Source of the DNA: Cryomorphaceae bacterium
GTDB taxonomy: Bacteria; Bacteroidota; Bacteroidia; Flavobacteriales; Schleiferiaceae
DNA: 43,479 nt
Assembly: GCA_021298655.1 (NCBI GenBank)
Contig: JAJTFK010000012.1
Coordinates: 1 to 43,479, forward strand
Reading direction: 5' to 3'
Shown: positions 11,059-29,729 of the stretch, one piece after another
Layout of the letters: every line of letters begins with the position of its first letter
Numbering within the stretch: the first letter of the stretch is position 1
Notes under the pieces: model-generated
The model's input: the letters and a program-made list of their open reading frames with translations, nothing else
Database searches by the model: none
Told to the model about the DNA's origin: nothing
Position numbers and translations under genes: made by a program

Positions 11059-12105
11059 CTAGTTACTTGTCACTCGCGCCACTACCGGATTGTGGTCGCT
11101 CCAGCGCTGCTTGACCACGCGGTGCTCGAGGGCCTTCCAATCGCCGCTGGTCCATATCCAATCAATGCGAAGCGGAACAACCCGCAGCCCGCGGTAGGTG
11201 CTTCCCCAGCCGGCGCCCGACTGAATAAACGTGTCGGAGCCCAGTTCGCGGAGCCTTCGGTGGGTGGCCGACGTAGGGCCGTCGTTGAAGTCGCCCAGCA
11301 CGAGCGCCGGACGGGAGCTTTCGGCCCACCAAGCAGCGAGGGCGTCAACCTGAACGGATCGGGGTTCCGCCCGACGAATCATGCGGCGCAGCAGCAGCTT
11401 CGCGCTTTGCCACCAGCCTGCCTTGGCTTGTTCCGACTGTGCCTCGCGAAGGTCGACGTCGGTACTCACCAGGTGCACGTTGACCACGCGCAGCGTGTCG
11501 CCATAGGGCAGCAAAACGTCGGCCCAAATAAAACCGACCCGCCCCGAATCGCCGGGGTAGTCCACTCGGTCCCACTGCACAATGGGGTAACGGCTGTACA
11601 GGGCGAGGTCGTAGGCCTCGACGCGGTGCGGCAGTTCTTCGCCGATTTGGCGCTCGGCGTCCGTTCCACGGCGCACGTCCTGAAGGGCGAGCACGTCGAC
11701 GCCGAGTTCCGAGGCGAACTTGGCCATTTCGCTCACGGTGGCGGAATCCTCGGTCCAGGTGCGGTTGCGCCAGTGGTGCACGTTCCAGCTGGCTACCAAC
11801 ACGCTGGGCTGAGCGTACCATGCCGAGTTCGGCGCCCGAACCTGCATCCAGCTGCCCATTGGGGTCCAAAAGGCGGCCAGCAGGATTCCGCCCAACAGGG
11901 CCGAGGGGTGGAGGTGCGCGGTAGCCATCATGCTCCACAGCACGTGGTAGAGCACCAGGTAGGGCAGGAGCAGGCTCAGCGGCGCGAGCAGCGACAGATC
12001 GGTGGCCATGCCCAGCCACGCCAGCCCCGTCACCGGCAGGGCGAGGAGCTGCGGAATCCACCACCACCGGCGGCCCCATTTACTTCTTTTGGCTGTAGCG
12101 GGCAA
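11059..12105 (-). CDS. Membrane-anchored endonuclease/exonuclease/phosphatase-family protein
   Basis: 348 residues: two to three N-terminal hydrophobic segments (about 17-85), then an EEP (DNase I-like) domain. Landmarks are SWNVHHW with Asn108, GDFND (271-275), the IDWIW strand and SDHNPV (Asp337, His338). The metal-binding Glu usually found in 'LQE' is Asp143 here (ALQDV), a conservative but unusual change. The start is TTG 12105, overlapping the end of the upstream rhomboid gene by 26 bp; no earlier ATG is available. It lies last in the mutL-rhomboid-rhomboid-EEP operon. It could be a phosphodiesterase, lipid phosphatase or nuclease; the substrate cannot be read from sequence. Confidence 0.8.
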   Translation of the reverse strand: MPATAKRSKWGRRWWWIPQLLALPVTGLAWLGMATDLSLLAPLSLLLPYLVLYHVLWSMMATAHLHPSALLGGILLAAFWTPMGSWMQVRAPNSAWYAQPSVLVASWNVHHWRNRTWTEDSATVSEMAKFASELGVDVLALQDVRRGTDAERQIGEELPHRVEAYDLALYSRYPIVQWDRVDYPGDSGRVGFIWADVLLPYGDTLRVVNVHLVSTDVDLREAQSEQAKAGWWQSAKLLLRRMIRRAEPRSVQVDALAAWWAESSRPALVLGDFNDGPTSATHRRLRELGSDTFIQSGAGWGSTYRGLRVVPLRIDWIWTSGDWKALEHRVVKQRWSDHNPVVARVTSN

Positions 12106-12871
12106 GGAGTTTGCGTTCGTTGGCGGTCAAGGATTCGTAGCCTTTGGCCGAAATTTTATCGAGAAGTTGATCCAGGCTGGGATCTTGGGGTCGAACGACG
12201 CTCAGCGGGCTTTTGGGGGCGGAACGCCGCGCCGTACGGCGTGCCGCGAGGTCGAGGAGGTGCGGTCGGGCCGAAAAAAACCAGCCGGCTGCGGCTCCGG
12301 CCAAGTGCGCGGCGCGGGCCGTCGTGTCGGGTGCAAAAAGCCCGATTACGTCCATTCCCAGCAACACGGCCAAAACGACCCAAAGCTTGAGTTCGAGGAC
12401 CATAAACAACCGAACCTTGAAGTCGGGCATCCGCACCGCGGCCGCGGTGAACACCGCATAAACACCGGCCGATGCGCCCACCACAAAGGCAGGGCGCCAA
12501 ATTCCGGCCAACCAGGCTCCGAGTCCGCCCACAAAAACGCCCACCGCAAACAGCCGAAGGATCCGCGTCGGGGGCCAGAGGGTTTCGAGCAGCGAGGCCG
12601 TGAAGTACAGCGTCAGGGCATTAAAAACCAGGTGAAGCAGCCCGTGGTGCAGGGCGCCGTAGGTCAGAAAGGTCCATGGACGGTAAAGCGGCCTCAGGCC
12701 CTCGGTGTCCAGCGAGAGGTAGCTAATGATGCCTTGTTCGGCGGGCCAGCCGAGCAGCCAGCCGGCGGACTCGAGGAGGGTTTGTACCACAAAAACGAGC
12801 ACCAGTCCCGCAATCAAGCGGTTAACGGGGCTCTGCTGCATCCAGGAGCGAATCGAATCCATCGGGCTCAT
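12080..12871 (-). CDS. Rhomboid-family intramembrane serine protease (second copy)
   Basis: A 263-residue polytopic rhomboid. The catalytic dyad is Ser134 in GASAGV and His189 in AAHLAG. The conserved HHGLLHLVFN segment (75-84) corresponds to the His/Asn oxyanion region. A cytosolic C-terminal tail of ~60 residues is rich in basic residues. The start is ATG 12871, with another ATG at 12862. It lies 13 bp after the first rhomboid gene in the same operon. Such proteases cut transmembrane helices within the lipid bilayer; the substrate is unknown. Confidence 0.88.
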   Translation of the reverse strand: MSPMDSIRSWMQQSPVNRLIAGLVLVFVVQTLLESAGWLLGWPAEQGIISYLSLDTEGLRPLYRPWTFLTYGALHHGLLHLVFNALTLYFTASLLETLWPPTRILRLFAVGVFVGGLGAWLAGIWRPAFVVGASAGVYAVFTAAAVRMPDFKVRLFMVLELKLWVVLAVLLGMDVIGLFAPDTTARAAHLAGAAAGWFFSARPHLLDLAARRTARRSAPKSPLSVVRPQDPSLDQLLDKISAKGYESLTANERKLLARYSQKK

Positions 12872-12884
12872 CGGGGCGGGGGAG

Positions 12885-13571
12885 CTAAAACCGGGTCCTG
12901 CTTGATTGCCACTTGCGAATCAGGAGGAAGCCAAAAATCATTCCGCCAACGTGGGCGAAGTGGGCGATGCTGGAGCCGGAACTGGCGACCCCATTGAACA
13001 ACTCAAATAATCCGTAAATGGCCACAAAATACTTGGCCTTGATGGGCAACAGAAAGTACAGGTAAATCTGCTGGTTGGGGTACATCATGCCGAATCCGAG
13101 CAGCAGCCCAAAGACGGCGCCGGATGCGCCAACCGTGGGGGTCAAGGCCAGCGACTGCATTTGGTACAGGGCTTCGGCACTGCCGGTGAGCGCGTGGAGG
13201 TTGCTCGCCTGGAGGTACTCCCAGTAGTTGACCCCTAGGTGGAGTGCGGCGGCCCCAAATCCCGTGACGAAGTAGTAGGTCAAGAAGCGCTGGCTTCCCC
13301 AGCGATTTTCGAGCGGAGTTCCGAACATCCACAGGGCAAACATGTTGCCCAAAATATGACCTAAGTTGCTGGTATCGTGTAGAAAAAGGTGCGTAACCAG
13401 CTGAAACGGTTTAAATAGTTCGCTGGCGGGCAGGTACAGCCCAAAATGGCCAATGACGTCGTAGCCCATGCGGCCAAACACGATGCTCGCGAAGAAGGCG
13501 AGTCCGTTGATGATCAGCAGGTTTTTAACAACGGGCGGAAGAAAGCTGAATCCAGAAGGTCGGTAGTACAT
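12885..13571 (-). CDS. Rhomboid-family intramembrane serine protease (first copy)
   Basis: A 228-residue rhomboid with six to seven membrane helices. Catalytic Ser150 is in GASGAVFG and His207 in AHVGGMIFG; HILGNMFALWMFG (from His72) is the conserved helix-2 segment. It starts 2 bp after the mutL stop, so it is cotranscribed with mutL and followed by a divergent paralogue. The pair shares the fold but little sequence outside the active sites, which suggests an old duplication with different substrates. Confidence 0.9.
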   Translation of the reverse strand: MYYRPSGFSFLPPVVKNLLIINGLAFFASIVFGRMGYDVIGHFGLYLPASELFKPFQLVTHLFLHDTSNLGHILGNMFALWMFGTPLENRWGSQRFLTYYFVTGFGAAALHLGVNYWEYLQASNLHALTGSAEALYQMQSLALTPTVGASGAVFGLLLGFGMMYPNQQIYLYFLLPIKAKYFVAIYGLFELFNGVASSGSSIAHFAHVGGMIFGFLLIRKWQSSRTRF

Positions 13572-13573
13572 GA

Positions 13574-15346
13574 TTAAAAGAAGCGTGCAAGTTCATCGGC
13601 TGTCAAAAGTCGCGCCGTGGCGCGCCCGAGATCGTCGGTCCAGGGGTCGCTGCAGGCAAAGAGCCGATCGATTAAATCCGGAAAATCCCGAACCCGACGC
13701 GGGTGGGCGTTGAGCCATTGGCTGATCCACGTTCGCAGTTCGGCGGGGTCGTCGGGGTCAATTTTGGCGAGACCATCCAGCCAATCCAGGGCCGCTTCGG
13801 GGGAGCAAAATCCAGGTCCTGCGGTCCAGCGCCATGTTTCGTCGCCTTCGTCCCAGGCAAACCCCCAGGCCTCCAGGCGCGAGCCCCACTGGGCAACCAA
13901 ACCGGGCCTTGGGTTCCATTCGAGCGGAAACAACCAAGTTTGTCCGTGCTGCGGTCCGCCCTCCAGCCAACGTTCCAGGTCGATGCGCCGCTGGGCACGA
14001 GCCACATGGACCAATACCAACTTATCGGGCATCGGAACCAGGGCATAGGTTCCCGCTACGCTGTAGGCACTGCCGCTGCGCGCCGGGCGCTTGGATTCGA
14101 GGACGGCGCCGTCGTCGTTCCAGCCAAAACTGGGCAGTTCCAGTTCGTGCTGCGCGGCGGTGGAATCGGCGCTCGGTGGGGCCAAAAAATCCAGGGCTTC
14201 GCGGCTCGCCGTTCGGCGATCGCTGGAGGCAGCAGCAGCCGTGAACGGATTGTAGTTGGGATTGATGAAAATTCCCGGGGCCTCGGGGCGCGCCCGGCTG
14301 CTCCAGTCGATGTGTTCGCCTACGGGAACGTCAAAATCCAGCGTTGGCGCAATTTGGTGGATCCCCAGCGCACGGCGAACCGCACTGCGCACCACCGCGT
14401 ACACGCCGCGTTCGTCGTCAAACTTGACTTCGGTTTTGGCCGGGTGAACGTTGACGTCAATCCGCTCGGGGTCGAGCGTCAAAAACAGGACGTAGGCCGG
14501 ATGTTGGTCTCCCGAAATCAGCCCTTCAAAGGCCTCGAGGACCGCCCGGTGGATGTAGGGGCTGCGAACGGTGCGTCGGTTCACAAACAGGTACTGATCG
14601 CCCCGAGTTTTGCGCGCGGCTTCGGGGCGGAGCACAAATCCGTGCACGTGAACCAAATCGGTCACCTCGTCTACGGGCACGAGCTTCTCGTTGCTGCGCC
14701 GCCCGAGCACCGCCGTGGTGCGCTGGCGCACGTTGCCGGGCTCCAGGACGCGTTCGTCGGCATCTTGGTGCTGAAGCACCATGCGTACTTCGGGGTGGGC
14801 CAAGGCCAGCGCGTCAAACGCTTCGACTACATGCTTGAATTCGAGCACGTCGGACTTTAAAAACTGACGTCGAGCCGGTACATTAAAAAACAGGTTGTCG
14901 ACCGTAACCGTGGTGCCAACCGGGCCGGGGCTGGGGCTGCTTCCTTCGTGTGCGCCCCCAAAGCAGCGCAACTCGATGCCCACCTCGTGGTCGGCGGTTC
15001 GCGAACGAAGCGTTACCTGGGCCACGGCAGCCATGGAGGCCAGGGCTTCGCCCCGAAACCCCATGGTAGTGAGGGCAAAGAGGTCGTCGGGATCGCGAAG
15101 TTTGGAGGTCGCGTGACGCACCAAGGCCATAGGAAGATCCTCGGGGTCGATGCCGTGTCCGTTGTCCCGAACGAAAATTCGGGTTCGGCCCGCGTCGCGA
15201 AGGCCAACGACCACTTCCGTGGCGCAAGCATCCAACGCATTCTCAATCAGCTCTTTAACTACCGAGGATGGACGCTGCACGACTTCGCCGGCCGCCACCA
15301 AATTGGCCACCGATTCCGGGAGCGCGCGAATGGGGGGGCGGTTCAT
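13574..15346 (-). CDS. mutL: DNA mismatch repair protein MutL
   Basis: 590 residues starting at ATG 15346 (MNRPPIRALPESVANLVAAG), overlapping the stop of the upstream small gene as ATGA. The GHKL ATPase N-terminus is intact: ELIENALDA, DNGHGI, ATSK, GFRGEAL, then NVPARR and NVHPAKTEVKF in the transducer domain. The C-terminal domain is atypical. Where endonuclease-type MutL has DQHAx2Ex4E there is HVARAQRRIDLE, and where a CPHGRP motif is expected near the end there is DDLGRATARLL. It is therefore predicted to dimerise and couple MutS to downstream factors without its own nicking activity. It heads a run with the rhomboid genes. Confidence 0.93.
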   Translation of the reverse strand: MNRPPIRALPESVANLVAAGEVVQRPSSVVKELIENALDACATEVVVGLRDAGRTRIFVRDNGHGIDPEDLPMALVRHATSKLRDPDDLFALTTMGFRGEALASMAAVAQVTLRSRTADHEVGIELRCFGGAHEGSSPSPGPVGTTVTVDNLFFNVPARRQFLKSDVLEFKHVVEAFDALALAHPEVRMVLQHQDADERVLEPGNVRQRTTAVLGRRSNEKLVPVDEVTDLVHVHGFVLRPEAARKTRGDQYLFVNRRTVRSPYIHRAVLEAFEGLISGDQHPAYVLFLTLDPERIDVNVHPAKTEVKFDDERGVYAVVRSAVRRALGIHQIAPTLDFDVPVGEHIDWSSRARPEAPGIFINPNYNPFTAAAASSDRRTASREALDFLAPPSADSTAAQHELELPSFGWNDDGAVLESKRPARSGSAYSVAGTYALVPMPDKLVLVHVARAQRRIDLERWLEGGPQHGQTWLFPLEWNPRPGLVAQWGSRLEAWGFAWDEGDETWRWTAGPGFCSPEAALDWLDGLAKIDPDDPAELRTWISQWLNAHPRRVRDFPDLIDRLFACSDPWTDDLGRATARLLTADELARFF

Positions 15347-15600
15347 CGCAGCAGCAGCGAAGCCAAAACCAACAACGCGGCAAAAATCCCGGCCATGCGC
15401 AGAAACTGGCTGCTGCCCGCAGACCGCGTGGTCCGCTTGGACGACCACGCCTCGTGAAGGCGTTGCTTTCGCGCTTCAGGATTTGCTTGGCCGTCTTCGC
15501 CGAGTTGGGCAAGTCGTTCCTTGCGTTCGTCGTAGTAGCGGTGCTGCAGCTGAAATCCGCGGGGTTTGCTCTGGTTTTTAAACAGGGAAAAAAGCGCCAT
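15343..15600 (-). CDS. Small membrane protein upstream of mutL
   Basis: 85 residues from ATG 15600. The N-terminal half is soluble and basic with the recognisable 'HRYYDERKERL' segment, and residues ~68-84 form a single C-terminal membrane helix. I recall short proteins with a similar 'RYYD/E' segment near mutL in Flavobacteriales; the function is unknown. Its stop overlaps the mutL start, and a TACCTTTG promoter box lies 6 bp upstream of its ATG, so it is probably the first gene of the mutL operon. Confidence 0.7.
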   Translation of the reverse strand: MALFSLFKNQSKPRGFQLQHRYYDERKERLAQLGEDGQANPEARKQRLHEAWSSKRTTRSAGSSQFLRMAGIFAALLVLASLLLR

Positions 15601-15606
15601 ACCCCC

Positions 15607-15614
15607 CAAAGGTA
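15607..15614 (-). promoter_or_regulatory. Bacteroidota -7 promoter box TACCTTTG for the mutL operon
   Basis: On the minus strand, TACCTTTG ends 6 bp before the ATG at 15600. If transcription starts the usual few bases after the box, the mRNA is almost leaderless. Confidence 0.55.
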
Positions 15615-15641
15615 CCGCGATTTTTGGCCTACTTTGGGGTC

Positions 15642-18335
15642 ATGAAAGGCAAATGGGTTCTCGGTGCGTCACTTTTATGCACGGTGTTGACTACCAGCAC
15701 ACTGCGTGCGCAAAATCTCGAACGCCAGCTCGGACAACTGATCATGGTTGCGGGCTACAGCAACAAGGGTACGGCCGAAATCGACCGACTCGAGGCCCTG
15801 GTTCGGGCCGAAGACATCGGAGGAATCATTTGGATGCAAGGCGGCCCCGAGCGGCAGCGGGCGGCAATCAAGCGGCTGCAGTCTGCGGCCAAGTTGCCCT
15901 TGATGATGGCCCAAGACGCCGAATGGGGCGCAGCCATGCGCCTGGATAGCCTGCCGCGCTTGCCCTGGCCGCTCACCCTTGGCGCCACGGGCGACACCGC
16001 GCTCGCGCGGCGCTACGGCGAAGCCCTGGCCACGGAATCCCGCATGCTCGGCATCCACGTGAACTTTTCGCCGGTCGTCGACGTCAACACCAACCCGCGC
16101 AACCCCATCATCGGGCAGCGCGCCCTCGGCAGCGATCCGCGCCGCGTTTCGTCGCTGGCCATTGCCCAAATTCGCGGAATGGAACGGGCCGGCGTGATGG
16201 CCTGCGTCAAGCACTTCCCGGGCCACGGCGATACCGAGACCGACAGCCACCACACGCTGCCGACCGTCGCGCGCAGCCGTGCCGAGCTAAAGCGCCTCGA
16301 CCTGGCACCGTTCAAGGCCACATTTGATGCCGGCGTCGGTTCGGTTATGGTGGCCCACGTCAACATCCCGGCGCTCGATCCGAGCGGAACCCCTGCATCG
16401 CTCAGCAAAGCCGTGGTGACGAATTGGATGCGCGACAGCCTGGGCTACCAGGGCCTCAGCTTCACCGACGCCCTCAACATGAAGGGGGTATCGCAGGACC
16501 TGGCGCCCGGCGAGCTCGAAGTGCGTGCGTTTGAAGCAGGCCACGATGTGCTGCTTTTTGTGGGCAGTCCGCGCGCGGCCATTGCGGCCCTAAAGGCGGC
16601 GGTGCGAAGCGGACGCATCGACTCGACCGAAGTGCACCGTCGCTACCGCCGGGTTGTCGAAGCCAAGAAGCGGTGGAACTGCGGAGCGCCCTTGCCCGAG
16701 GCCGACTACGCGGCGCAACGGGCGACCTGGGCGCAGCTGAGTTCGGAAGTTTACGGGGCCGCATTCACGGAGGTCAAGGCGATGAATGCCGTGGAGGCCA
16801 TGGAATTTTATGGCGAAGGCACGCCGCCCGAGGGACTTAAGCCGGTTCAGCCCGGCGACCAGCGCGTGGTGTTGATTTTTGGTACATCCAGTACCACGGC
16901 CTGGAAGAAGGGTGCCTGGACCGACGAAATGAAGGCCGCCCTGGCCCGCCACCAAGCCGCCGGCCGACGGGTGGGCGTGGTGCACCTGGGCAACCCCTAC
17001 GGGCTTCGGGGTCAACCGGTCGAAGATCTGGCCGGGCTTTGGGTGGGCTACGAGAACACCCCCGAAACGCGGCAGCTGGCCGCAGACGTCGTTCGAGGAA
17101 CCCGGCCGGCTCCCGGTCGCCTTCCGGTCCAGGGAATCCCGGCGCCCAAGATGCTGCAGGCGTCCGACCTCCAGTCGGCCGGCTTCGCCCCCGATTTGGC
17201 CAAGCGGGTCGAGGCGGTGGTGAACGTGGGCCTCGAGGCCAAGGCCTACCCCGGTTGCCAGGTTCTGATCGCCCGACACGGGGATCTGGTCCTTTCCAAG
17301 GGCTACGGAACCCTTGACGGCACCGCGCCGGTAACGGCAGAAACGGTCTACGACATTGCGTCGGTTACAAAAATCATGGCAAGCGTCCCTCTGCTCCTCG
17401 AGGTCTACGACGAAGAGGGTCCCGGATTCCTGACTCGGACCATGGACCAGCTCCTGCCCGAGCTGCGCGGAACGGCCATTGGCCGCGCCCTGGTGCAGGA
17501 CGTCTTAGCCCACCAGTCCGGACTTCCGGCGTGGTTGCCGTTTTGGAAATCCATGGTTCGCCAAGACGGCGGTTACGACCACCGCTACCTTCGGACCCAG
17601 CGCGATACCGTCTACCGGTTGCCGGTTGCGCCCGGAATCTGGGCCGCCGAGTGGATGCACGACACCCTGATTGCCCGCATCGCCCGAGCGCCCTTGGGCC
17701 CCAAAACTTATGAGTATTCCGACCTCGGATACTACCTTTTTCAGCGCTTTCTGGAGCGCCGCGACGGGCGGAGCATCGAACGCCAGCTTGAAGACGACTG
17801 GTACGGGCCCCTTGGAGCTTCGCTCTGCTTCAACCCCGAAGCTTCGGAACGCGTGGCGCCGACGGAATACGACCGGGTCTTTCGCAAGCAGCAAATCCGC
17901 GGCACGGTTCACGACCAGGGTGCCGCGCTGATGGGGGGTGTAGCCGGCCATGCCGGGGTCTTCGGGACCGCCGAGGGCGTGGCCCGCATGATGCAGGTTT
18001 TTCTGGACGGCGGAACCGCCAACGGCCTTCGCTTCACCAGTGCCGAGGCCCTAAACCGCTTCACGGCCTGCCTCGCCTGCGACCAAGGCAACCGGCGCGG
18101 ACTCGGGTTCGACAAGCGGCAGCGCTCCGGCGGAGGCCCCGCCTGCTTGTGCACCAGCACGTCCAGCTTCGGCCACACCGGATTCACCGGTACCTTTGCC
18201 TGGGCCGATCCCGAAACGGGCATCGTCCTGGTTTTTCTTTCCAACCGCGTTTTTCCCGATGCCAGCGTCAACAAACTCGCCCAAATGGGCATTCGCACCG
18301 ACCTTCAGCAGGTGGTGTACAGCGCTCTACTTTAG
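15642..18335 (+). CDS. GH3 beta-N-acetylhexosaminidase fused to a class C beta-lactamase-like serine hydrolase
   Basis: An 897-residue secreted or periplasmic two-domain protein. The start is ATG 15642 with a signal peptide (MKGKWVLGASLLCTVL...LRAQ). Residues ~26-345 are a NagZ-like GH3 domain with the KHFPGHGDT(x)5H dyad motif (190-204) and nucleophile Asp276 in FTDALNMKG. NagZ-type enzymes release GlcNAc from peptidoglycan. Residues ~525-895 are a beta-lactamase/esterase fold with SxxK Ser574-Lys577 (ASVTK) and a YSDLGYY segment standing for the YxN motif. The middle segment looks like a degenerate GH3 C-terminal domain. The second domain may act as a DD-peptidase, esterase or amide hydrolase. 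It is the first gene of a five-gene operon. Confidence 0.87.
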   Translation: MKGKWVLGASLLCTVLTTSTLRAQNLERQLGQLIMVAGYSNKGTAEIDRLEALVRAEDIGGIIWMQGGPERQRAAIKRLQSAAKLPLMMAQDAEWGAAMRLDSLPRLPWPLTLGATGDTALARRYGEALATESRMLGIHVNFSPVVDVNTNPRNPIIGQRALGSDPRRVSSLAIAQIRGMERAGVMACVKHFPGHGDTETDSHHTLPTVARSRAELKRLDLAPFKATFDAGVGSVMVAHVNIPALDPSGTPASLSKAVVTNWMRDSLGYQGLSFTDALNMKGVSQDLAPGELEVRAFEAGHDVLLFVGSPRAAIAALKAAVRSGRIDSTEVHRRYRRVVEAKKRWNCGAPLPEADYAAQRATWAQLSSEVYGAAFTEVKAMNAVEAMEFYGEGTPPEGLKPVQPGDQRVVLIFGTSSTTAWKKGAWTDEMKAALARHQAAGRRVGVVHLGNPYGLRGQPVEDLAGLWVGYENTPETRQLAADVVRGTRPAPGRLPVQGIPAPKMLQASDLQSAGFAPDLAKRVEAVVNVGLEAKAYPGCQVLIARHGDLVLSKGYGTLDGTAPVTAETVYDIASVTKIMASVPLLLEVYDEEGPGFLTRTMDQLLPELRGTAIGRALVQDVLAHQSGLPAWLPFWKSMVRQDGGYDHRYLRTQRDTVYRLPVAPGIWAAEWMHDTLIARIARAPLGPKTYEYSDLGYYLFQRFLERRDGRSIERQLEDDWYGPLGASLCFNPEASERVAPTEYDRVFRKQQIRGTVHDQGAALMGGVAGHAGVFGTAEGVARMMQVFLDGGTANGLRFTSAEALNRFTACLACDQGNRRGLGFDKRQRSGGGPACLCTSTSSFGHTGFTGTFAWADPETGIVLVFLSNRVFPDASVNKLAQMGIRTDLQQVVYSALL

Positions 18336-18819
18336 CCTTCTCGTTGGCCTGAGCGCGCCGCTTTGGGGTCAAGCCCAGGTGGGCCATGAATTCAGCCGGG
18401 CCGACAGCGTTTCGGTTCACTACTTCGGGAACGGCAAGCCGCGCATGATTACGCCCTTTCGCCAAGGGCTTGCGCACGGTGTGGCCTTCGAATACCACGC
18501 ATCCGGTCAGATTAACTTCATTACCCACTACTACGACGGCGAAAAATCCGGCGAACAAAAAATGTTTGACCAGGCGGGCCGCCTGATTTGGGTAAAAACC
18601 TGGCAGGCCGACCGCATGCACGGCGAGGAGCGCCTCTACTACCAAGATGGCCAAATCCAGTCGCGGGCGGAGTGGCGGAACAACCAAAAGCACGGCGCCT
18701 CGATCTTTTACTACGAACAGGGTGGCGTGGCGGCCGAACTCCGCTACGAATTCGGAACCCAAGTTGGGTCCACCTACTACGACGAAGACGGCAACATCAA
18801 AAAAAACACCGTCGACTGA
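18259..18819 (+). CDS. Secreted YwqK/MORN-like repeat protein
   Basis: Roughly 186 residues. Tandem beta-hairpin repeats of the 'G.....Y...G......Y..G...G....Y...G.' type (FEYHASGQINFITHYYDGEKSGEQKM and following) match the MORN-2/YwqK family. These are often labelled antitoxin-like, but the function in Bacteroidota is unclear. A hydrophobic stretch ending LWGQAQ suggests a signal peptide. The start is uncertain: the only in-frame ATG giving a sensible signal is 18259, which overlaps the fusion gene by 77 bp, and no closer ATG or GTG exists. The stop overlaps the bshA start (TGATG). Confidence 0.7.
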   Translation: MPASTNSPKWAFAPTFSRWCTALYFSLLVGLSAPLWGQAQVGHEFSRADSVSVHYFGNGKPRMITPFRQGLAHGVAFEYHASGQINFITHYYDGEKSGEQKMFDQAGRLIWVKTWQADRMHGEERLYYQDGQIQSRAEWRNNQKHGASIFYYEQGGVAAELRYEFGTQVGSTYYDEDGNIKKNTVD

Positions 18820-19949
18820 TGCGCATCGGAATCGTTTGCCATCCCACCTTTGGCGGTTCGGGCGTGCTCGCAACGGAGCTCGCGGCCTACCTCGCCCAGC
18901 AAGGCCACAGCGTCCACGTGATCAGCTACGCGATGCCGGCGCGCCTCGATGAGCTGCAGCCCGACCTCTATTTTCATGAAGTCCAGGTACAGGATTACCC
19001 GCTGTTCCAGTACCAGCCCTACGAGCTGGCCCTTTCGAGCATGATGGTCCAGGTTGTGCAGCGCGAGAAGCTCGACCTGCTCCACGTGCACTACGCCATC
19101 CCGCACGCCTACGCTGCCTACATGGCGCGCAAAATTCTCGAGGACCAAGGGGTTCATATTCCGGTGGTTACCACGCTGCACGGCACCGACATCACGCTGG
19201 TGGGCAAGCACCCATCCTACAAGCCGGCCGTCTGCTTTTCCATCGAGCATTCCAGCGCCGTTACGGCGGTCTCCGAGTCCCTCCGCCGCGATACCGAGCG
19301 GATTTTCAGCATCCGGCACCGAATCCTCGTCATTCCCAACTTCGTGGACCTCAACCGCTACGGACGCGGTTCGTCCGACGATCGAAGCAAAATTGCGCCA
19401 GACGGGGTGCCCATTATGGTGCACGTCTCCAACTTCCGCAAGGTCAAGCGAATTCCCGACGTGGTCGATGTGTTTGCGCGCGTTCGGTCCCAAATCCCGG
19501 TTCGCTTGATCATGGTCGGCGACGGCCCCGAGCGGCCACGGGCTGAAGAAGACATCGAGGCTCGAGGTCTTCACGACGACGTACGGTGGATGGGTAAGTC
19601 CACCGACGTGGAGCGCATTTTGGCCATGTCCGATGTCTTTTTGCTGCCCTCGGAGTCGGAGTCCTTTGGTTTGGCGGCCCTAGAGGCGATGGCGTCCTAT
19701 GTTCCGGTGGTGGCCACTAATTCGGGTGGAATTCCTGAAGTCATCGACCACGGCCACAGCGGCTTCCTCGAAGCGGTGGGCGATACCGAGGCCATGGCGC
19801 GCGACGTGCTCGAAATCCTTACGACGCCCGGCCTACGGGATGCCATGGGCCAGCGCGCCCGCGCGAAGGCCGAGCAGTTTGCGATGGCGCCGGTGGGCAA
19901 CCAGTACATCGAACTCTACCAAAAACTGCTTCATGAGCAAGCGCGGTGA
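18819..19949 (+). CDS. bshA: N-acetyl-alpha-D-glucosaminyl L-malate synthase (bacillithiol pathway)
   Basis: A 376-residue GT4 glycosyltransferase that joins UDP-GlcNAc to L-malate, the first step of bacillithiol synthesis. Typical BshA features are the opening [46 protein letters not shown], the [10 protein letters not shown] phosphate-binding loop and the retaining GT4 E-x7-E segment ESFGLAALE. The start ATG overlaps the previous stop, and the next gene starts inside its last codons, so translation is coupled. It is cytosolic. bshB and bshC are not in the window. Confidence 0.93.
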
Positions 19950-20319
19950 TTTTTCGACCGGCGCGGCCGGCGACAACCCCTTTGCTTCGGCGCTGGCCTC
20001 GGCCCTGCAGTCCAAGGGCATCGAGGTGCCCGTGCCTTCGTCAAGCGGCGGCGACGACCTCGAGGCCGACGACCGCCCCGCGCCCAAGGGCACCTTGGGC
20101 ATTCGATTTGAACGCCGCAACGGAAAGCCCACCACCGTCGTCTTCGTCGACGGCGTGGACCACGCCGACCCCGCAGCTTGGGCCAGCGAACTCAAAAAGC
20201 GCTGCAGCGTGGGCGGGAGCCTTGTCGACCAAAGCATCGTACTCCAAGGCGACGTGCGCACCAAAGTTGAGGATTGGGCCAAGGCCAAAGGGCTTAAAAC
20301 CAAACGCATCGGAGGCTAA
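19933..20319 (+). CDS. eIF1/SUI1-domain translation factor (YciH-like)
   Basis: 128 residues. The C-terminal ~75 residues form a SUI1 domain: a VVFVDGVDH strand, ELKKRCSVGGS, then VLQGDVRTKVEDWAKAKGLKTKRIGG, which matches the family pattern 'KKxCxxGGx...LQGDxRxxV...L...G'. The N-terminal 50 residues are low-complexity and acidic. Bacterial YciH-type proteins are linked to start-site fidelity or stress translation. It starts 17 bp before the bshA stop and ends in TAATG overlap with the methyltransferase gene. Confidence 0.85.
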   Translation: MSKRGDFSTGAAGDNPFASALASALQSKGIEVPVPSSSGGDDLEADDRPAPKGTLGIRFERRNGKPTTVVFVDGVDHADPAAWASELKKRCSVGGSLVDQSIVLQGDVRTKVEDWAKAKGLKTKRIGG

Positions 20320-21089
20320 TGCTGCAGCTTGATTCTACCCAAAACCCCAAGGTGCGGCAGCTGATTCGCTACCGTGAAAAATCGGCGCTTCGGCGCAAAG
20401 ACGGCGTGGTGCTCGTCGAAGGGGTACGCGAACTGGAGCGCGCGGTGGCGGCTGGCTGGACGCTTCGCCAAACCTTCTGGGAGCCCGCCACGGCACATGT
20501 TCCGGCATGGGCTCAGGGTCACGGACAGCACTTTCGCTGCGCCTCGGCGGTCTACGAAAAACTCGTTTTGCGCGAAAACGGCGCGGGTGCCGTGGGATTG
20601 CTCGCGCAGCCCGTGGCGAGCCTAGACAACCTTGTTCTGCCCGCCAAGCCGTGGATTCTCGTGCTCGACGGCCTCGAAAAGCCCGGTAACGTGGGGGCCA
20701 TACTCCGCACCGCCGACGCGGTGGGCGTGGATGCGGTCGTATTCAGTAGCCTCGAATGCGATCCCTACAGCCCGCAGGCAGTTCGCAACTCGACGGGGGC
20801 CGTTTTCACGCTTCCCCTTGCCGCCGCACCCCGCGAAGCAGTTCAGGCTTGGCTTCGGGACCGCGGCGTTACGCCCTACGCGCTCCACCTTGAGGGGGCC
20901 ACGGCGCACCACGAGGTCGATTGGACCCAAGCGACTGCCATGGTACTCGGACCCGAGGATCGGGGGTTGGAGTCGTCGTGGTCCCATGCGCACCGGGTTA
21001 AAATTCCCATGAAGGGCCATGTGGATTCCCTAAATGTGAGTGTGGCTGCAGCCGTAGTTCTGTTTGAAGGTCTTCGCCAGCGAGGCTAG
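20319..21089 (+). CDS. SpoU/TrmH-family RNA 2'-O-methyltransferase
   Basis: A 256-residue SPOUT methyltransferase. The N-terminal substrate-binding part (FLVEG-like segment 'VVLVEGVRELERA') precedes the knotted domain with motif 1 LEKPGNVGAILRTADAVG, motif 2 VLGPEDRGL and motif 3 IPMKGHVDSLNVSVAAAV. It uses SAM to methylate a ribose in rRNA or tRNA; the target cannot be named, although RlmB-like 23S rRNA is most common for this layout. It is the last gene of the operon that begins at 15642. Confidence 0.9.
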   Translation: MLQLDSTQNPKVRQLIRYREKSALRRKDGVVLVEGVRELERAVAAGWTLRQTFWEPATAHVPAWAQGHGQHFRCASAVYEKLVLRENGAGAVGLLAQPVASLDNLVLPAKPWILVLDGLEKPGNVGAILRTADAVGVDAVVFSSLECDPYSPQAVRNSTGAVFTLPLAAAPREAVQAWLRDRGVTPYALHLEGATAHHEVDWTQATAMVLGPEDRGLESSWSHAHRVKIPMKGHVDSLNVSVAAAVVLFEGLRQRG

Positions 21090-21130
21090 GCAGCCCGTTA
21101 TCCGGGCTCGGACGTTGGCCGAAATGGCCT

Positions 21131-21163
21131 AAAAAAGGAAGCCCGATCCGAAGACCGGGCCTC
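21131..21163 (-). terminator. Intrinsic terminator with UUCG tetraloop
   Basis: Read on the minus strand: an 11-bp stem with arms GAGGCCCGGUC and GAUCGGGCUUC closed by a UUCG loop (C-UUCG-G), then one C and six U. It is positioned to end transcription from the second uvrA or from the candidate small RNA. Confidence 0.85.
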
Positions 21164-21213
21164 ACACCAAACCAATAAACCTATTCCACTGAACACGTTC
21201 AGATTCCTAGATT
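21131..21213 (-). ncRNA. Candidate small RNA between uvrA paralogue and SpoU gene
   Basis: A minus-strand TAnnTTTG box (21219-21226) is followed ~50 bp downstream by a very strong intrinsic terminator, defining a possible transcript of about 83 nt. It would contain a 5' hairpin (arms CUGAA/UUCAG), a U/G-rich single-stranded linker (GGUUUAUUGGUUUGGUGUG) and the UUCG-capped terminator. No coding frame fits. The alternative is that this is simply the 3' UTR of the uvrA paralogue. The -33 element spacing is not ideal (TTTG 12 nt upstream). Confidence 0.35.
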
Positions 21214-21218
21214 CCCCA

Positions 21219-21226
21219 CAAAGATA
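21219..21226 (-). promoter_or_regulatory. TAnnTTTG box (TATCTTTG) upstream of the candidate small RNA
   Basis: Exact consensus match on the minus strand inside the intergenic region, about 90 bp after the uvrA paralogue stop. An isolated 8-mer can occur by chance; its weight comes from the terminator placed downstream. Confidence 0.35.
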
Positions 21227-21314
21227 ACGGGTTAGCTGCAAAATAATACCCCAAAAAAACCACAAAGCCGTTTAAACGCAATTTTGGTAAGTTTAACCAA
21301 TACTAGCCTAAATT

Positions 21315-24047
<2,733 letters not shown>

Positions 24048-24057
24048 GGGCAAGGTG

Positions 24058-24065
24058 CAAATTTA
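24058..24065 (-). promoter_or_regulatory. Bacteroidota -7 promoter box TAAATTTG
   Basis: Minus-strand consensus match ending 10 bp before the ATG of the second uvrA gene (24047). No clear -33 TTTG at standard spacing was found. Confidence 0.55.
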
Positions 24066-24194
24066 CCGCTTTGTATTGCGAGAAAAAACTTATTTTTGGA
24101 TCCAGTTCTGCCGTCGAGGCAGTTCATTAAACCAAAAAATAGACCCGAGCCTATCGAAGCACAGCTACGCAAATTGACTTAATGCCAACCAGCT

Positions 24195-24770
24195 ATGCTG
24201 TACCCTCAGGTTCAGGATGCCGAGCTCATCGAGCGCTACGCATCCGGTGACGAGCGCTCCTTTGAAGTGCTCATGCGCCGCCACGGCGACGCCGTTTTTT
24301 CTGCCATTCTCGCTAAAGTCAAGGACCAATCGGTCGCCGACGACCTTTTTCAGGAGGTTTGGATCAAATTCATCCACACCATCAAGGCCGGCGACTACAC
24401 CGAGTCGGGCAAGTTTGCGGCGTGGATTCACCGGGTGGCCCGCAACGCCACCATGGATCACTTCCGGCGCCAGCAGCGCAGTCCGGTTGCGCACTACGAC
24501 CATTTTGAATCGGCTACCGACGGCGTGGCCGACGAGTCCCTCAACGTCGAAGAACGCGCCGTAGCCGCCCAATGGATGCTCGACGCCCACGAGGCGGTGC
24601 AGCGCCTGCCTGCCGACCAAAAACTCGTCTTGGAACTTCGGCTCCACGCCGGATTGAGTTTCAAAGAAATTGCCGAGGAGACGGGGGTGGGCATCAACAC
24701 GGCCCTGGGTCGCATGCGCTACGCCGTGGCCAATTTGCGCCGCATGCTCCACGTCGAAATACCAAACTGA
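24195..24770 (+). CDS. ECF-type RNA polymerase sigma factor
   Basis: 191 residues. The sigma-2 region carries DDLFQEVWIKFI and the -10-recognition helix WIHRVARNATMDHFRR. The sigma-4 helix-turn-helix is VQRLPADQKLVLELR...LSFKEIAEETGVGINTALGRMRYAVANLRR. The linker is short. It directs RNA polymerase to an alternative promoter set, probably for envelope or stress responses. The 147-bp upstream spacer contains a hairpin (arms ctgcc/ggcag, 24108-24122) that could be regulatory. A tiny gene follows 32 bp downstream where a zinc-type anti-sigma gene would often be found. Confidence 0.92.
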   Translation: MLYPQVQDAELIERYASGDERSFEVLMRRHGDAVFSAILAKVKDQSVADDLFQEVWIKFIHTIKAGDYTESGKFAAWIHRVARNATMDHFRRQQRSPVAHYDHFESATDGVADESLNVEERAVAAQWMLDAHEAVQRLPADQKLVLELRLHAGLSFKEIAEETGVGINTALGRMRYAVANLRRMLHVEIPN

Positions 24771-24802
24771 TCCCGGCGGCGTTAGGTAGGCAGCACCCCG
24801 TA

Positions 24803-24961
24803 ATGCGGCCTATGACTGAACCTACCCAACCCGATTCCCTTTTGGAAGCCCACCCCAGCGAAACCGCCTACCGGCGACTCATCGCGTATTCCGCTGCCTG
24901 CCGCGTCCTTTCGGTCGCTGACGCAATGCCTCCGGAGCTGCGCACCGCAATCCTGAATTAG
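24803..24961 (+). CDS. Small protein encoded downstream of the ECF sigma factor
   Basis: 52 residues from ATG 24803, or 49 from ATG 24812. The sequence is acidic at the N-terminus, then 'PSETAYRRLIAYSAACRVL'. I recall short genes with a similar 'P-S-x-x-T-x-x-x-L-x-x-Y-A' core after this kind of sigma factor in Flavobacteriales, but no function is known. There is no membrane helix and no zinc motif. It could be a sigma-binding regulator. It ends 5 bp from the convergent recQ stop. Confidence 0.55.
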   Translation: MRPMTEPTQPDSLLEAHPSETAYRRLIAYSAACRVLSVADAMPPELRTAILN

Positions 24962-24966
24962 CGGAC

Positions 24967-27159
24967 CTAAACCACGCTGCACAAAAAGCGCAACCGCGCC
25001 AACCGCAGCTCGAGTTCGCCGTACTCCTTGTTGAAGTGCCGCGTGGCCTCATCGAGTGCGCCGTCTTCGCTTTCGTCGGCGAAGTACTCGGTGATTTCGT
25101 CGAGCGAATCTTCGTCGAGGTAGTCCTCGATGAGGTAATCCAAGCTGAGTCGGGTGCCGCTGCGCACGATGTTCTCCATCTCGCTCAAGATTTCGTCGAC
25201 CGAAACCTGCTTGCTCCGGGCAATTTCTTCGAGGCCGAGCTTGCGGTCCACCGACTGAATAACGTAGAGCTTGAGGTTGCCCTTCTGGCCGGCACTGCGA
25301 ATCGCGAAATCGCCCGGGCGCTCGATGCCGTGGGCGTCGACGTGGGCCTTAATTGCGGCCACCAACTCCGCACCGAAGCGCTTGGCCTTGGCTTCGCCCA
25401 CGCCGGGAATCGTCTTAAGTTCCTCAAGACTAATCGGGTAGGAGGTGGCCATCTCGTTGAGTGAGGCCTCCGAAAACAGGGCATAGGGCGGAATACTGCG
25501 GGTCTTGGCCATCTTGCGGTTCAGCTCCTTAAGCACCCCGTAGAGCTCGGGATCCAGGGCCGCCGCACGCTTAACTGCTCCGCTGCCGCCGCCTACCACG
25601 TCGTCTTCGTCAAAGGCTCGGTAGGGAACCGCCGTGAACGTACGGCTACCCGACCGAAGCGCTTCGCCTTCGGCGGTCACCGACAAAATTCCGTATCGTT
25701 CCAAGTCCTTTTCGAGCACGCCCGCGAGCATAAGCTGGCGAATCAAGTCATCCCAGTAGCCGGGAGCAAATCCAGCCCCCTCACCCCAGGTGGCCAGGCC
25801 CCGCGCACCAAGCGTTTTTAAAATCGCCGTCTCGTTCGCGATCAGCGTGTTCACGACCTGCAGCGCGCGAAACTGGCCACGACCCAATTCCACGGTGCGC
25901 AGAATCAGTAGGGCATGACCCGTTGCGTCAAAGCCCGATTGCGAACTTCGGCAGTTGTCGCAGTTTCCGCAGTTGGGCTCGTCGTAGGATTCCCCGAAGT
26001 AGTGAAGCAGGAACTTGCGGCGGCAGCTCGACGTGATGGCGTAGGCCCGGGCATCGAGCAGCAGCTGGCGCCCAATCTCTTGCTCGGCCACCGGCTTGCG
26101 CGACAGGAACTTGTCCATTTTCTCAAGGTCCTTCTCGGCGTAAAACGTCACGCAGCGTCCTTCACCGCCGTCGCGTCCGGCGCGTCCGGTTTCTTGGTAG
26201 TAGCCCTCGAGGCTGCGCGGCATGTCGTGGTGGACAACCAGGCGCACATCGGGTTTGTCGATGCCCATGCCAAAGGCTACGGTCGCCACGATGACGTCTA
26301 CCTCTTCGTTCAAAAACGCGTCCTGGTGGCGGCTGCGCGAACCGGCATCCAGCCCGGCGTGGTAGGGCAGGGCCGAAATCCCGTTGAGCTGAAGCACCTG
26401 CGCGAGCTCCTCCACCTTTTGGCGGCTTAGGCAGTACACAATGGCGGATCGCCCCGCGTAGTCCCGCAGCAAGCGCACCACGTCGCGCTCGACGTTGGCC
26501 GTCTTGGCTTCGACCTCATAGGCGAGGTTGGGGCGGTTAAAACTCGTGGTAATCACCGTGGCATCGGGGATTTCGAGCGTTTTCAAAATGTCCGACATCA
26601 CCTTGGGCGTGGCCGTGGCCGTCAGGGCCAAAATAGGACGGCGTCCAATGGCGTTCATGGCCTGGCGCAGCATGCGGTACTCGGGCCGGAAATCGTGGCC
26701 CCATTCCGAAATGCAGTGCGCTTCGTCAATCGCATAAAAGGACACATTAAGTCCGCGCAAAAAATCAATGTTTTCCTGCTTGTTCAGCGACTCGGGCGCC
26801 ATGTACAAGAGCTTGGTGCGGCCAGCCGACAAATCTTGGCGGACTACGACCATTTCGCGCTTGCTGAGCGACGAATTCCACACGTGGGCCACGCCGTCGG
26901 AGTCTGCGAAGCTGCGCAGCGCGTCAACCTGGTTTTTCATCAGGGCGATGAGCGGCGAAACCACCACGGCCACGCCCGGCATGTCGAGCGCCGGCAACTG
27001 GTAGCACAGCGATTTGCCGCCCCCGGTGGGCATCATCACAAAGGTGTCGTCCCCGTTCATTACCGAGGCCACAACCTCGATTTGGCGGCCCCTAAAGTCG
27101 TCAAAACCAAAAAATGACTTCAATAAAGCCCGGCTGGATACCGGTTCAAACGTGGCCAT
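24967..27159 (-). CDS. recQ: ATP-dependent DNA helicase RecQ
   Basis: 730 residues from ATG 27159 (upstream codons in frame belong to the spacer). It is an SF2 3'-5' helicase. Walker A is MPTGGGKSLCYQLPA (about 43-57), the DEAH box is in AIDEAHCISEWGHDFRPEY, motif VI is YYQETGRAGRDG, and RecQ zinc cysteines lie in SSCRRKFLLHYFGE...CGNCDNC. A winged-helix (RQC) region, an HRDC domain (MAKTRSIPPYALFSEASLNEMA...) and an acidic C-terminal tail follow. It acts in recombination and fork repair. It is divergent from tatC with a 68-bp spacer. Confidence 0.95.
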   Translation of the reverse strand: MATFEPVSSRALLKSFFGFDDFRGRQIEVVASVMNGDDTFVMMPTGGGKSLCYQLPALDMPGVAVVVSPLIALMKNQVDALRSFADSDGVAHVWNSSLSKREMVVVRQDLSAGRTKLLYMAPESLNKQENIDFLRGLNVSFYAIDEAHCISEWGHDFRPEYRMLRQAMNAIGRRPILALTATATPKVMSDILKTLEIPDATVITTSFNRPNLAYEVEAKTANVERDVVRLLRDYAGRSAIVYCLSRQKVEELAQVLQLNGISALPYHAGLDAGSRSRHQDAFLNEEVDVIVATVAFGMGIDKPDVRLVVHHDMPRSLEGYYQETGRAGRDGGEGRCVTFYAEKDLEKMDKFLSRKPVAEQEIGRQLLLDARAYAITSSCRRKFLLHYFGESYDEPNCGNCDNCRSSQSGFDATGHALLILRTVELGRGQFRALQVVNTLIANETAILKTLGARGLATWGEGAGFAPGYWDDLIRQLMLAGVLEKDLERYGILSVTAEGEALRSGSRTFTAVPYRAFDEDDVVGGGSGAVKRAAALDPELYGVLKELNRKMAKTRSIPPYALFSEASLNEMATSYPISLEELKTIPGVGEAKAKRFGAELVAAIKAHVDAHGIERPGDFAIRSAGQKGNLKLYVIQSVDRKLGLEEIARSKQVSVDEILSEMENIVRSGTRLSLDYLIEDYLDEDSLDEITEYFADESEDGALDEATRHFNKEYGELELRLARLRFLCSVV

Positions 27160-27215
27160 AGGCGGTGAAAAAAACGGCGCAAAATTGCACCAAAACTTGA
27201 AGGTACGACCAATCC

Positions 27216-27223
27216 TACCTTTG
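27216..27223 (+). promoter_or_regulatory. Bacteroidota -7 promoter box TACCTTTG for tatC-lptB
   Basis: Ends 4 bp before the tatC ATG (27228). A TTG at 27197-27199 lies 16 bp upstream of the box, near the accepted spacing for the -33 element. Confidence 0.65.
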
Positions 27224-27227
27224 CAGC

Positions 27228-28043
27228 ATGTCCGACGGTTCACGCATGCCCTTTTTGGCGCACCTCGCGGCGCTCCGAACCCACTTGGTGCGGGCGTCGG
27301 GCTTCATCCTTGCCGGGGCCGTCGTCGCCTTCGTCTTCATGGACTGGCTTTTTGCCCACGTGCTGCTGGCGCCCAAAGAGGCCAACTTCATCACCTACCG
27401 GTTGTTTTGCGAGGCCGGAACCTACCTCGACCTGCCGTCCCTCTGCATCGGCGGATTCCAACTCGACCTGCTCAACACCCAAATGGCGGGTCAATTCAGC
27501 CTGCACATGTGGCTGTCCCTGGTCGCAGGCTTGATTATGGCTTTTCCGTTCGTGCTCTTTGAACTCTGGCGCTTCATCGGCCCCGGCCTTACCGAGCGCG
27601 AGCGCAGCCTTTCCGTCCTGTTTATCGGCTCGGCCTCCTTGCTTTTCTTTCTCGGAGCCCTGTTTGGCTACTACCTCATCGTGCCGCTAAGCCTCCAGTT
27701 TTTGGCGACCTACACCGTCAGTGGCGAAATTCAAAACCTCTTTGAAATGTCGTCCTACCTCTCGACCGTGACCAGTGTGGTGGTTGCGAGCGGACTCCTC
27801 TTTGAACTGCCCGTTGCCGTGTATTTGCTGTCGCGACTCGGACTCACCACCCCCCAGGGAATGCGCACCTACCGCCGCCACGCCTGGATTGGAATTTTGA
27901 CGATTGCGGCCGTCATCACCCCGCCCGACGTATTCAGCCAAATCGTGGTCTCGCTGCCGGTGGCCTTACTCTACGAACTGAGTATCGGCTTGAGTCACCT
28001 GGCACACGTTCAACGCAAAAACCGCGTTAAATCCAACGCATGA
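27228..28043 (+). CDS. tatC: Sec-independent (twin-arginine) translocase subunit TatC
   Basis: A 271-residue inner-membrane protein with six hydrophobic segments; it forms the twin-arginine signal receptor. Family landmarks include the N-terminal [12 protein letters not shown], the cytosolic loop [21 protein letters not shown]-like '[18 protein letters not shown]', and [21 protein letters not shown] near the end. The usual HLxELR glutamate (E. coli Glu15, part of the signal-binding site) is Ala here, while the second site (the Glu of ERER) is kept. tatA is not in the window. The stop overlaps the lptB start as ATGA. Confidence 0.95.
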
Positions 28044-28798
28044 TGACCCTCCGCGCCGAAAATCTGGTTAAAACCTACCGCGGCCGCCGCGTGGTGGACG
28101 GGGCGAGCTTTAGCGTGAATCAAGGCGAAATCGTCGGGCTGCTCGGGCCCAACGGCGCCGGAAAGACGACGTCCTTTTACAGCGTAGTGGGCCTGGTTCG
28201 CCCCGACGAGGGCCGCGTCCTGCTCAACGACCAGGAGCTCACCGACCTCCCCATGTACCGCCGTGCGCAGCTCGGCATCGGCTACTTAGCTCAAGAAGCC
28301 TCGGTATTCCGCAAGCTCAGCGTCGAAGACAACGTGGCCGCCGTGCTGGAGTGGCGCGGTTTCGATCGGGCCGAAGTGCGCCGCCGCACCGACGAACTCC
28401 TCGACGAATTCAGCCTGACCAAGGTGCGGGCCTCGCGGGGTGAACTCCTTTCGGGTGGCGAACGCCGCCGCACCGAAATTGCCCGCTGCCTGGCATCCGA
28501 CCCCAAATTCATCCTCCTCGACGAGCCCTTTGCGGGCGTTGACCCCATCGCCGTCGAAGACATTCAAACCATTGTGGCCCGCTTGGCCGACGAACGCGGA
28601 ATCGGCGTGCTCATCACCGACCACAACGTCCACGAAACCCTGGCCATCACCGACCGGACCTACCTCATGTTTGAGGGCAAAATCATCAAGAGCGGAACGG
28701 CCGAAGAACTCGCCGAAGACGAGGTCGTTCGCCGCGTCTACTTGGGCCAGAACTTCAGTCTTCGCCGCGGTGGGCGGCGCGGCGCAACCGGTCGTTAA
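28040..28798 (+). CDS. lptB: Lipopolysaccharide transport ATP-binding protein LptB
   Basis: A 252-residue ABC ATPase that powers LPS extraction by LptFG and export to the outer membrane. Walker A is GPNGAGKTT (36-44), the Q-loop region [15 protein letters not shown] is characteristic of LptB, the signature is [14 protein letters not shown], and Walker B plus D-loop is [16 protein letters not shown]. The switch His is in [10 protein letters not shown]. Its start overlaps the tatC stop. Its 3' end overlaps the convergent tsaC gene by 44 bp. Confidence 0.95.
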
Positions 28799-29711
28799 CC
28801 GCCCGTCCGAGCCCCTCTTCGGGGGCCAACTCCATCCACAGTTCGCGGTCGCTGGAGGCCGCAAAATCCCGAAGGGCCGCAAACAACCGCTGCGCGCCTT
28901 CGGAACCGCTTCCGTTCGTCGTGAGCGAAGCAAGGCCGTGCGTTCCAGGCTGCCACGCAAGGTACTGGTTGCCCGCCTCGGGCTCGACCGAAGACCAATC
29001 AAAACCATGGGGTACCAGTCGGACCGGCTTCCCCGGGGCGTAGTGGGCGTCCAGCATACCCGGAGCGACGGGTCGACTCGAAGAACGGCGTACCTCGGGT
29101 TCGTAGCCCAGCAGCTCGCGCAGCCGTTCGAGCGGAACGCCCCCAAGGCGAAGCACCACCGCTGCGCCGCCGTCGGCCCACGAAACAATGGTCGATTCCA
29201 AACCGACCGCACAGGGTCCGCCGTCGAGGATGTAGTCCACCTTGCCCGCGAGCTGATCGGCCACGTGCTGGGCCGTAGTCGGCGATACAAACCCAAAGGG
29301 ATTCGCGCTGGGCGCCGCCACGGGCACGCCCGCCGACGCGATGAGCTGCCGGGCCAGATCCAATTGCGGAATCCGCACCGCCACGTGGTCCAACCCCGCC
29401 GTGACCAGGTCCGGAACCTCTGGCCGCTTGGGAACCACGTAGGTCAAGGCCGCCGGTCCCAGCGCCGACCAAAGGACTCGGGCCTCGGCCGGAACCTGGG
29501 CGGCCACGCGGTCCACGTCGTTCCAGTCGGCCAAATGCACAATGAGGGGATCAAAATGCGGGCGGTTTTTCGCCGCAAAAATCCGCGCAACCGCGACTTC
29601 GTCGAGGGCGTTCGCAGCCAGGCCGTACACCGTTTCCGTAGGCATGCCCACCAGGCCGCCGGACCGAAGTACCGACGCGGCTCGGGCTAAATCGGTCCCC
29701 AACTGCTGCAT
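28755..29711 (-). CDS. tsaC: L-threonylcarbamoyladenylate synthase (Sua5/YwlC type)
   Basis: 318 residues: an N-terminal YrdC domain (about 1-200) plus the C-terminal Sua5 domain, so the long Sua5/YwlC form. It makes threonylcarbamoyl-AMP from Thr, bicarbonate and ATP for t6A37 in tRNA. Landmarks are PTETVYGL (23-30), [16 protein letters not shown], the VAVRIP strand, [18 protein letters not shown] and GLESTIVSW. MtaB (6262-7608) acts later on the same base. A TACCTTTG box sits 5 bp upstream of the ATG. Confidence 0.93.
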
Positions 29712-29716
29712 GAGAA

Positions 29717-29724
29717 CAAAGGTA
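29717..29724 (-). promoter_or_regulatory. Bacteroidota -7 promoter box TACCTTTG for tsaC
   Basis: Minus-strand match in the 18-bp gap between the T9SS plug stop (29730) and the tsaC ATG (29711), 5 bp from the start codon. It is the only non-coding space available, so it probably gives tsaC a private promoter behind the plug gene. Confidence 0.55.
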
Positions 29725-29729
29725 GCGGG

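Follow-up and report, generated by a model that had tools for sequence, protein, structure and literature searches.

A predicted small RNA gene conserved beside uvrA in Schleiferiaceae and its candidate complementary partner RNAs

The window, i.e. the whole stretch of 43,479 nucleotides of Cryomorphaceae bacterium DNA analysed here, carries on its minus strand a uvrA gene (21315..24053; NCBIfam TIGR00630, above cut-off) and, convergent with it on the plus strand, a gene for a TrmH/RlmB-type RNA methyltransferase (20319..21089; NCBIfam TIGR00186, below cut-off). Downstream of uvrA, on the same strand, the minus-strand sequence from 21226 to 21131 presents, in order, a TAnnTTTG box, a hairpin at the 5' side, UUGGUUUGG as an unpaired linker, and a terminator with an 11-bp stem, a UUCG loop and six T, the layout that the initial annotation had described. 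Placing the -7 promoter box (TATCTTTG, 21219..21226) at -12 to -5 (PMC9723704) set the start at about 21214 and the length of the predicted sRNA at about 84 nt (21131..21214), close to the ~83 nt proposed originally; no -33 TTG element was evident at the usual distance from the box. The 5' hairpin (21177..21214) is composed of P1 (GAATCTA/TAGGTTT, 21214-21208 with 21183-21177) and P2 (CTGAA/TTCAG, 21202-21198 with 21193-21189) and is followed by the unpaired linker ATTGGTTTGGTGT (21164..21176), the proposed seed, and by the intrinsic terminator (21131..21163), with arms GAGGCCCGGTC-TTCG-GATCGGGCTTC at 21163-21138 and six T at 21136-21131. Folding of the lone 96 nt gave a z of -2.5 (2/200 shuffles equally good), and P1 was assigned by sequence comparison, since it is missing from the minimum-energy fold of these 96 nt. 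The terminator stem, with 11 pairs, had the most among 33 terminator-like sites found in 12000-31000; shuffles of these 19 kb yielded a mean of 26 sites, indicating that the terminator is unusual in strength only.

The exact TAnnTTTG box was present upstream in 17 of 20 aligned homologous loci, the three exceptions being L015, which reads TAAATTTA, L021, which is cut by the contig end, and L033, where there is none. Among eight orthologs, the mean pairwise identity was 0.94-0.97 in the linker and terminator, versus 0.72 in the box block, 0.55-0.64 in the hairpin, 0.31-0.50 in the upstream spacer, 0.08-0.51 downstream and 0.60-0.87 at the uvrA end; the linker itself (0.96-0.97, with invariant columns in the 19 sequences of alignment A1) is therefore kept better than the adjoining coding sequence. 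A blastn search with 180 nt against 60 relatives recovered seven members of the genus (E < 1e-15); the linker, together with the initial bases of the terminator stem, was the part that reached farthest among these relatives. In the hairpin, the letters vary among orthologs while the pairs are retained. The unfitted alignment of eight sequences displayed two-sided changes at 4/5 P2 pairs, and 10 such changes were counted against 2.8 in the control. With 42 sequences, two-sided changes were seen at 4/7 P1, 5/5 P2 and 10/11 terminator pairs (19/23), with 151 two-sided cells, compared with 32 for shuffles and 12-27 after sliding, figures that lean towards the structure of model R1, to which this alignment (A6) and A4 were fitted. 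A6 comprised 42 of 56 sources, excluding L015, L022, L045, L048, L054, L058, L063, L065, L069, L083, L088, L093, L118 and L149.

Using the TrmH gene as synteny anchor in the 22 genomes of the genus, the uvrA-TrmH junction was readable in all except G010, and the sRNA was found there in 16 of the 21 readable members, as a degenerate copy in G018. It was absent from the junction in G009, G011, G013, G015 and G016, in which the gap between both genes is 14-24 bp, and these five members indicate that the sRNA is dispensable. Of the 88 genomes of the family, model R1 matched 45 at E <= 0.001 and 68 at E <= 1, in genera g1, g6, g9, g12, g16 and g37; eight of the recovered genomes had been used for its training, and the model E-values are rough. 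At least two R1 matches (E <= 1) were detected in 23 of 25 g6 genomes: at the loci examined, one copy lies between uvrA-like and TrmH-like genes (L067, L071 and L073), and second copies located elsewhere (L068 and L070) display the same hairpin and UUAUUGGUUUGG with a different terminator. A tandem array of five R1 matches within 900 bp was observed at L083 (G036:C419, 1381-2245), each member preceding its own terminator, with a spacing of some 100-360 bp.

An exact 21-nt core was retrieved from 16 records of the contig database (genome_contigs), labelled as Schleiferiaceae (n = 2), Cryomorphaceae (n = 5), Phaeocystidibacter luteus and an Owenweeksia-labelled MAG, the rest being named to order or above; the host family is probably Schleiferiaceae in the wide sense. 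All 16 records carried a methyltransferase gene downstream, while the upstream neighbour was a uvrA-like gene in 10, another gene in three (L401, L410 and L414) and unreadable in three. L401 is from the culturable Phaeocystidibacter luteus LMG 25704. A phage origin was rejected, as no exact core was present in viral contigs. When 394 other Bacteroidota genomes were searched with model R2, 15 gave matches at E <= 0.01 (about four expected by chance; best 4.5e-4); inspection of all 15 revealed that many directly follow coding sequence, hence these matches were dropped and the genomes were not counted as members.

On the comparative evidence, a genuine small-RNA gene is very likely present beside uvrA, and it is best read as independent. 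Its position on the uvrA strand, about 100 nt past the uvrA stop, would also suit an RNA processed from the uvrA 3' UTR, the alternative kept by the initial annotation, or merely the terminator of uvrA; the conserved box and linker argue against such an origin, and the recurrence of the box, together with copies away from uvrA (the second g6 copies, the L083 array, and L401, L410 and L414), makes it highly improbable. As in trans-acting sRNAs, the sequence holds a promoter-like box of its own, a Rho-independent terminator and, in the linker, a conserved single-stranded seed; the traits of a 3'-UTR-derived sRNA, namely no promoter of its own and one parent gene, were not found. A plain spacer or terminator was rejected on account of the conserved box, hairpin and linker. 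Conservation thus extends beyond the terminator hairpin, whose isolation had been named at the outset as what would speak against an sRNA gene, and includes the linker in relatives, so that the original proposal of an independent sRNA gene is supported.

The comparison with Rfam that had been suggested earlier placed no family at threshold in the window. RF04177 (BTnc201, MasB) aligned over its full length and scored 20 bits (E 0.57 over 601 bases), where the gathering score is 105. The sub-threshold alignment displays the same plan of hairpin, U/G-rich linker and terminator; over the whole own genome RF04177 gave no match at E <= 10, and sub-threshold matches appeared in 9/14 control genomes. 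With 20 versus 105 bits, homology to MasB was rejected, the plan alone being in common. MasB of Bacteroides thetaiotaomicron is an intergenic RNA of ~100 nt with the same succession of 5' hairpin, U/G-rich linker and terminator but a different sequence; it pairs with mRNA partly via positions 41-50 and 69-74 and is narrowly conserved, and the available portions of the report mention no sponge (PMC10994844). GibS and FopS of Bacteroides are paralogous sRNAs with a common seed and housekeeping promoters, and so resemble the present family as multicopy, seed-sharing Bacteroidota sRNAs, but they are bound by the RRM-1 protein RbpB, whereas no RRM_1 match was obtained in the genome studied here; for FopS this comparison follows its description in the available text (PMC11697453). 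Rfp18 of Flavobacterium psychrophilum is, according to its description in the accessible part of PMC9723704, likewise a conserved flavobacterial RNA with strong structure, but its pairing region is the third stem-loop.

Elsewhere in the genus, short sequences matching the linker exactly turned out to have the opposite polarity and to lie between a promoter-like box and a different terminator. Tiny predicted RNA genes of this kind, not foreseen by the initial annotation, occupy two conserved loci in 14/22 genus members, including this genome. Locus 1 (10 genomes; L080, L104, L108, L110, L113, L114, L115, L121, L125 and L193) faces a PaaD-type gene in convergent orientation (assigned to Pfam PF23451 on one example), and locus 2 (seven genomes; L081, L082, L087, L105, L107, L111 and L112) is found downstream of an AlbA_2 gene (assigned to Pfam PF04326, again on one example); three genomes have both. 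Partners consist of a promoter-like box (CACATTTG, CACTTTTG, CACCTTTG and similar), an element near GGCYUCACACCAAAYC and a terminator, and the alignment confirmed box, complement and terminator as their common parts; the complement element is present twice in L108 and L110. Upstream of the locus-1 box, a conserved TCTCACAA(TT) element, often repeated, was observed (L080, L104, L108, L110, L113-L115, L121 and L125), which could be a regulator binding site. The partner of this genome is located at G000:C45:45665-45681 (minus strand). A search of the own genome allowing three mismatches returned 16 matches versus 19 in the control, i.e. no excess, for which reason only this 1-mismatch match, accompanied by box, terminator and synteny, was counted. 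No dedicated partners were found outside g1, except for one g12 candidate: at L200 (G063:C32, ~1200, minus strand) a partner-like RNA with UUCACACCAAACCAAUUUG before its terminator is convergent with coaE.

The stretch complementary to the own partner RNA spans 16 nt with two G-U pairs (21158..21173) and extends from the linker into the terminator 5' arm. A contiguous sRNA-partner duplex of 16-21 bp was predicted in all 16 same-genome pairs tested, with energies at z -2.9 to -6.0 versus shuffled partners, although three pairs (G000 and both from G005) were equalled or surpassed by one or more of their 200 shuffled partners. Where the sRNA has A for G at one place (G001 and G019), all three partners carry U and never C; U at that position is also common in other partners. 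The YTCACACCAAAYC pattern occurred 40 times in the 22 genus genomes versus two for the reversed pattern, the occurrences corresponding to junction sRNAs (n = 15), partners (n = 17), sense-polarity RNAs elsewhere (n = 4) and others (n = 4). At 24 further loci inspected, the match was inside an ORF >= 60 aa in 18; the six intergenic ones were the locus-1 partner L193, the sense-polarity L106, the partner-like L200, and L165, L168 and L197, for which no meaning was evident. A partner was present in 13/16 genomes with the junction sRNA versus 0/5 without it; this co-occurrence is in part circular, as the partners had been identified through their match. A general habit of UUGGUU before terminators was rejected, the motif preceding 0/45 terminators in G053 and 2/35 in G020, both of the latter being the RNAs described here.

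Taken with a probability of about 0.7, the preferred reading is that the locus encodes an independent sRNA of ~84 nt that would pair in trans via its seed and be buffered within the genus by the complementary tiny RNAs. Sequence comparison showed its anatomy, conservation and covariation, and also that the complementary elements exist and are syntenic between promoter-like boxes and terminators. The gene, with its 5' hairpin, single-stranded AUUGGUUUGGUGU seed and Rho-independent terminator, would be transcribed independently, and its RNA would most likely act in trans by base pairing through this seed, presumably on mRNA targets. The partners beside the PaaD-like and AlbA_2 genes would be transcribed in turn; carrying the complement of the seed and of the first terminator-stem bases, they would sequester the sRNA in the cell in a duplex of 16-21 bp, so that its activity is probably buffered. 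As predicted separate RNA genes complementary to the seed, the partners look like trans-encoded sponges, suggesting that sRNA and partners are regulators which inactivate one another by binding. The genome, 97% complete, gave no match at E <= 0.001 to Hfq (PF17209) or RRM_1 (PF00076), the chaperone genes on which an Hfq- or RbpB-dependent sRNA would rely; other chaperones are possible, and the lack of such matches suits long uninterrupted duplexes.

Pairing being symmetric, and the partners having promoter-like boxes and terminators of their own, the polarity might be reversed, with the PaaD- and AlbA_2-locus RNAs as regulators or targets and the uvrA-linked RNA as their sponge, a view also favoured by the doubled complement in L108 and L110. 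We regard it as unlikely, because the sRNA occurs in several genera (45/88 genomes), including genera in which no dedicated partners were found, whereas partners were seen mainly in g1; as the older and more widespread of the two, the uvrA-linked RNA is more likely the regulator. An invariant, unpaired, U/G-rich linker, like the U/G-rich linker of MasB, could instead be the site of an RNA-binding protein rather than a seed. However, the genome holds no RRM_1 or Hfq match at the threshold used, the motif is rare before terminators, and protein binding would not predict complementary RNA genes, so a protein site in place of a seed seems improbable; both functions of the linker could hold together. 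The trans-pairing sRNA with titrating partners is retained as the preferred reading of the locus.

A weak candidate for an mRNA target is glmS. In enteric bacteria, GlmZ acts on glmS and has in GlmY a mimic or decoy partner; the sRNA described here might be a counterpart that regulates glmS via leader pairing, though its predicted partners are antisense RNAs, not mimics, and the glmS link is weak. The ACCAAACCAA sequence lies just upstream of glmS (assigned by NCBIfam on a partial protein) in all five close genomes, with the start codon 23 nt downstream in four of them, the contig of G019 ending soon after; of the 54 exact sites in these genomes, 46 were inspected, seven being sRNA or partner loci and G020:C3:32971 being left out. 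Across 70 glmS leaders, taken from 69 of the 76 genomes that gave a match, the anti-seed motif was present in 16/22 of g6, within the true leader, and in 11/12 of g1 with the sRNA versus 0/4 of g1 without it, compared with 13/246 other leaders of G098. However, the motif set was chosen after viewing the leaders, and related genomes are not independent. Moreover, the g1 site falls within the final codons of the gene before glmS (..WYTKPN*). Because genera in which no sRNA was detected likewise show TKP endings, protein constraint may account for this site; in the sRNA-bearing genus g9 the motif was found in 0/3 glmS leaders. Duplex ranking with three own-linker forms placed glmS 40th, 16th and 11th among 283 leaders of G098; in G020 it came first of 160, but had been chosen beforehand by its motif, and the ORFs behind both rankings are mechanical, some of them spurious. 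Regulation of glmS by this sRNA is accordingly doubtful.

In Proteobacteria, sponges are separate RNAs that pair with an sRNA and block it, as described in the available text for a Caulobacter sponge (PMC12559287) and a PinT antagonist (PMC12721325). The predicted partners differ from these in being dedicated tiny syntenic genes at two loci, with 16-21 bp of uninterrupted pairing and no Hfq match in the genome. Among the matches listed for a literature search conducted partly with narrow terms, the text available described neither this RNA nor any sponge RNA in Bacteroidota. Relative to the known systems, the novelty lies in the sRNA family, in anti-seed genes that stand alone and keep their synteny, and in a genome with no Hfq match. 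If the preferred reading is right, a Bacteroidota family with many aquatic members would gain an sRNA family whose seed is defined, and an organism with no Hfq or RRM_1 match would be shown to encode sponge RNAs in stand-alone genes of conserved synteny; such a natural conserved seed/anti-seed pair would make Hfq-independent sRNA action in Bacteroidota testable via compensatory base swaps.

Other predicted RNAs were noticed during the comparison. One is flanked by a transporter-like and an alpha-amylase gene (G000:C11:27399 [L131, L264], L077, L078, L079 and L109; genes assigned by Pfam on L079) and carries a hairpin containing the seed-like GGUUUGGUGUGAGG, followed by AUUGGUUGG and a strong terminator; having the same seed, it would be predicted to pair with the partners too. 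An Hfq-free seed/anti-seed network, in which the family-wide sRNA, the two-locus antisense genes and this seed-sharing RNA beside amylase and sugar-transporter genes would tune sugar and cell-wall precursor metabolism, is a speculative extension with rather low odds. Downstream of a sucC-like gene, L088 and L093 (G081 and G029) present a predicted RNA with AUUGGUUAGGUUAGUUUGGUUGG before its terminator, and in four f3-family genomes (L211, L212, L213 and L221) a 3'-UTR element, UUGGUUUAUU(U)GAUUAGUGA, precedes the terminator of the same gene.
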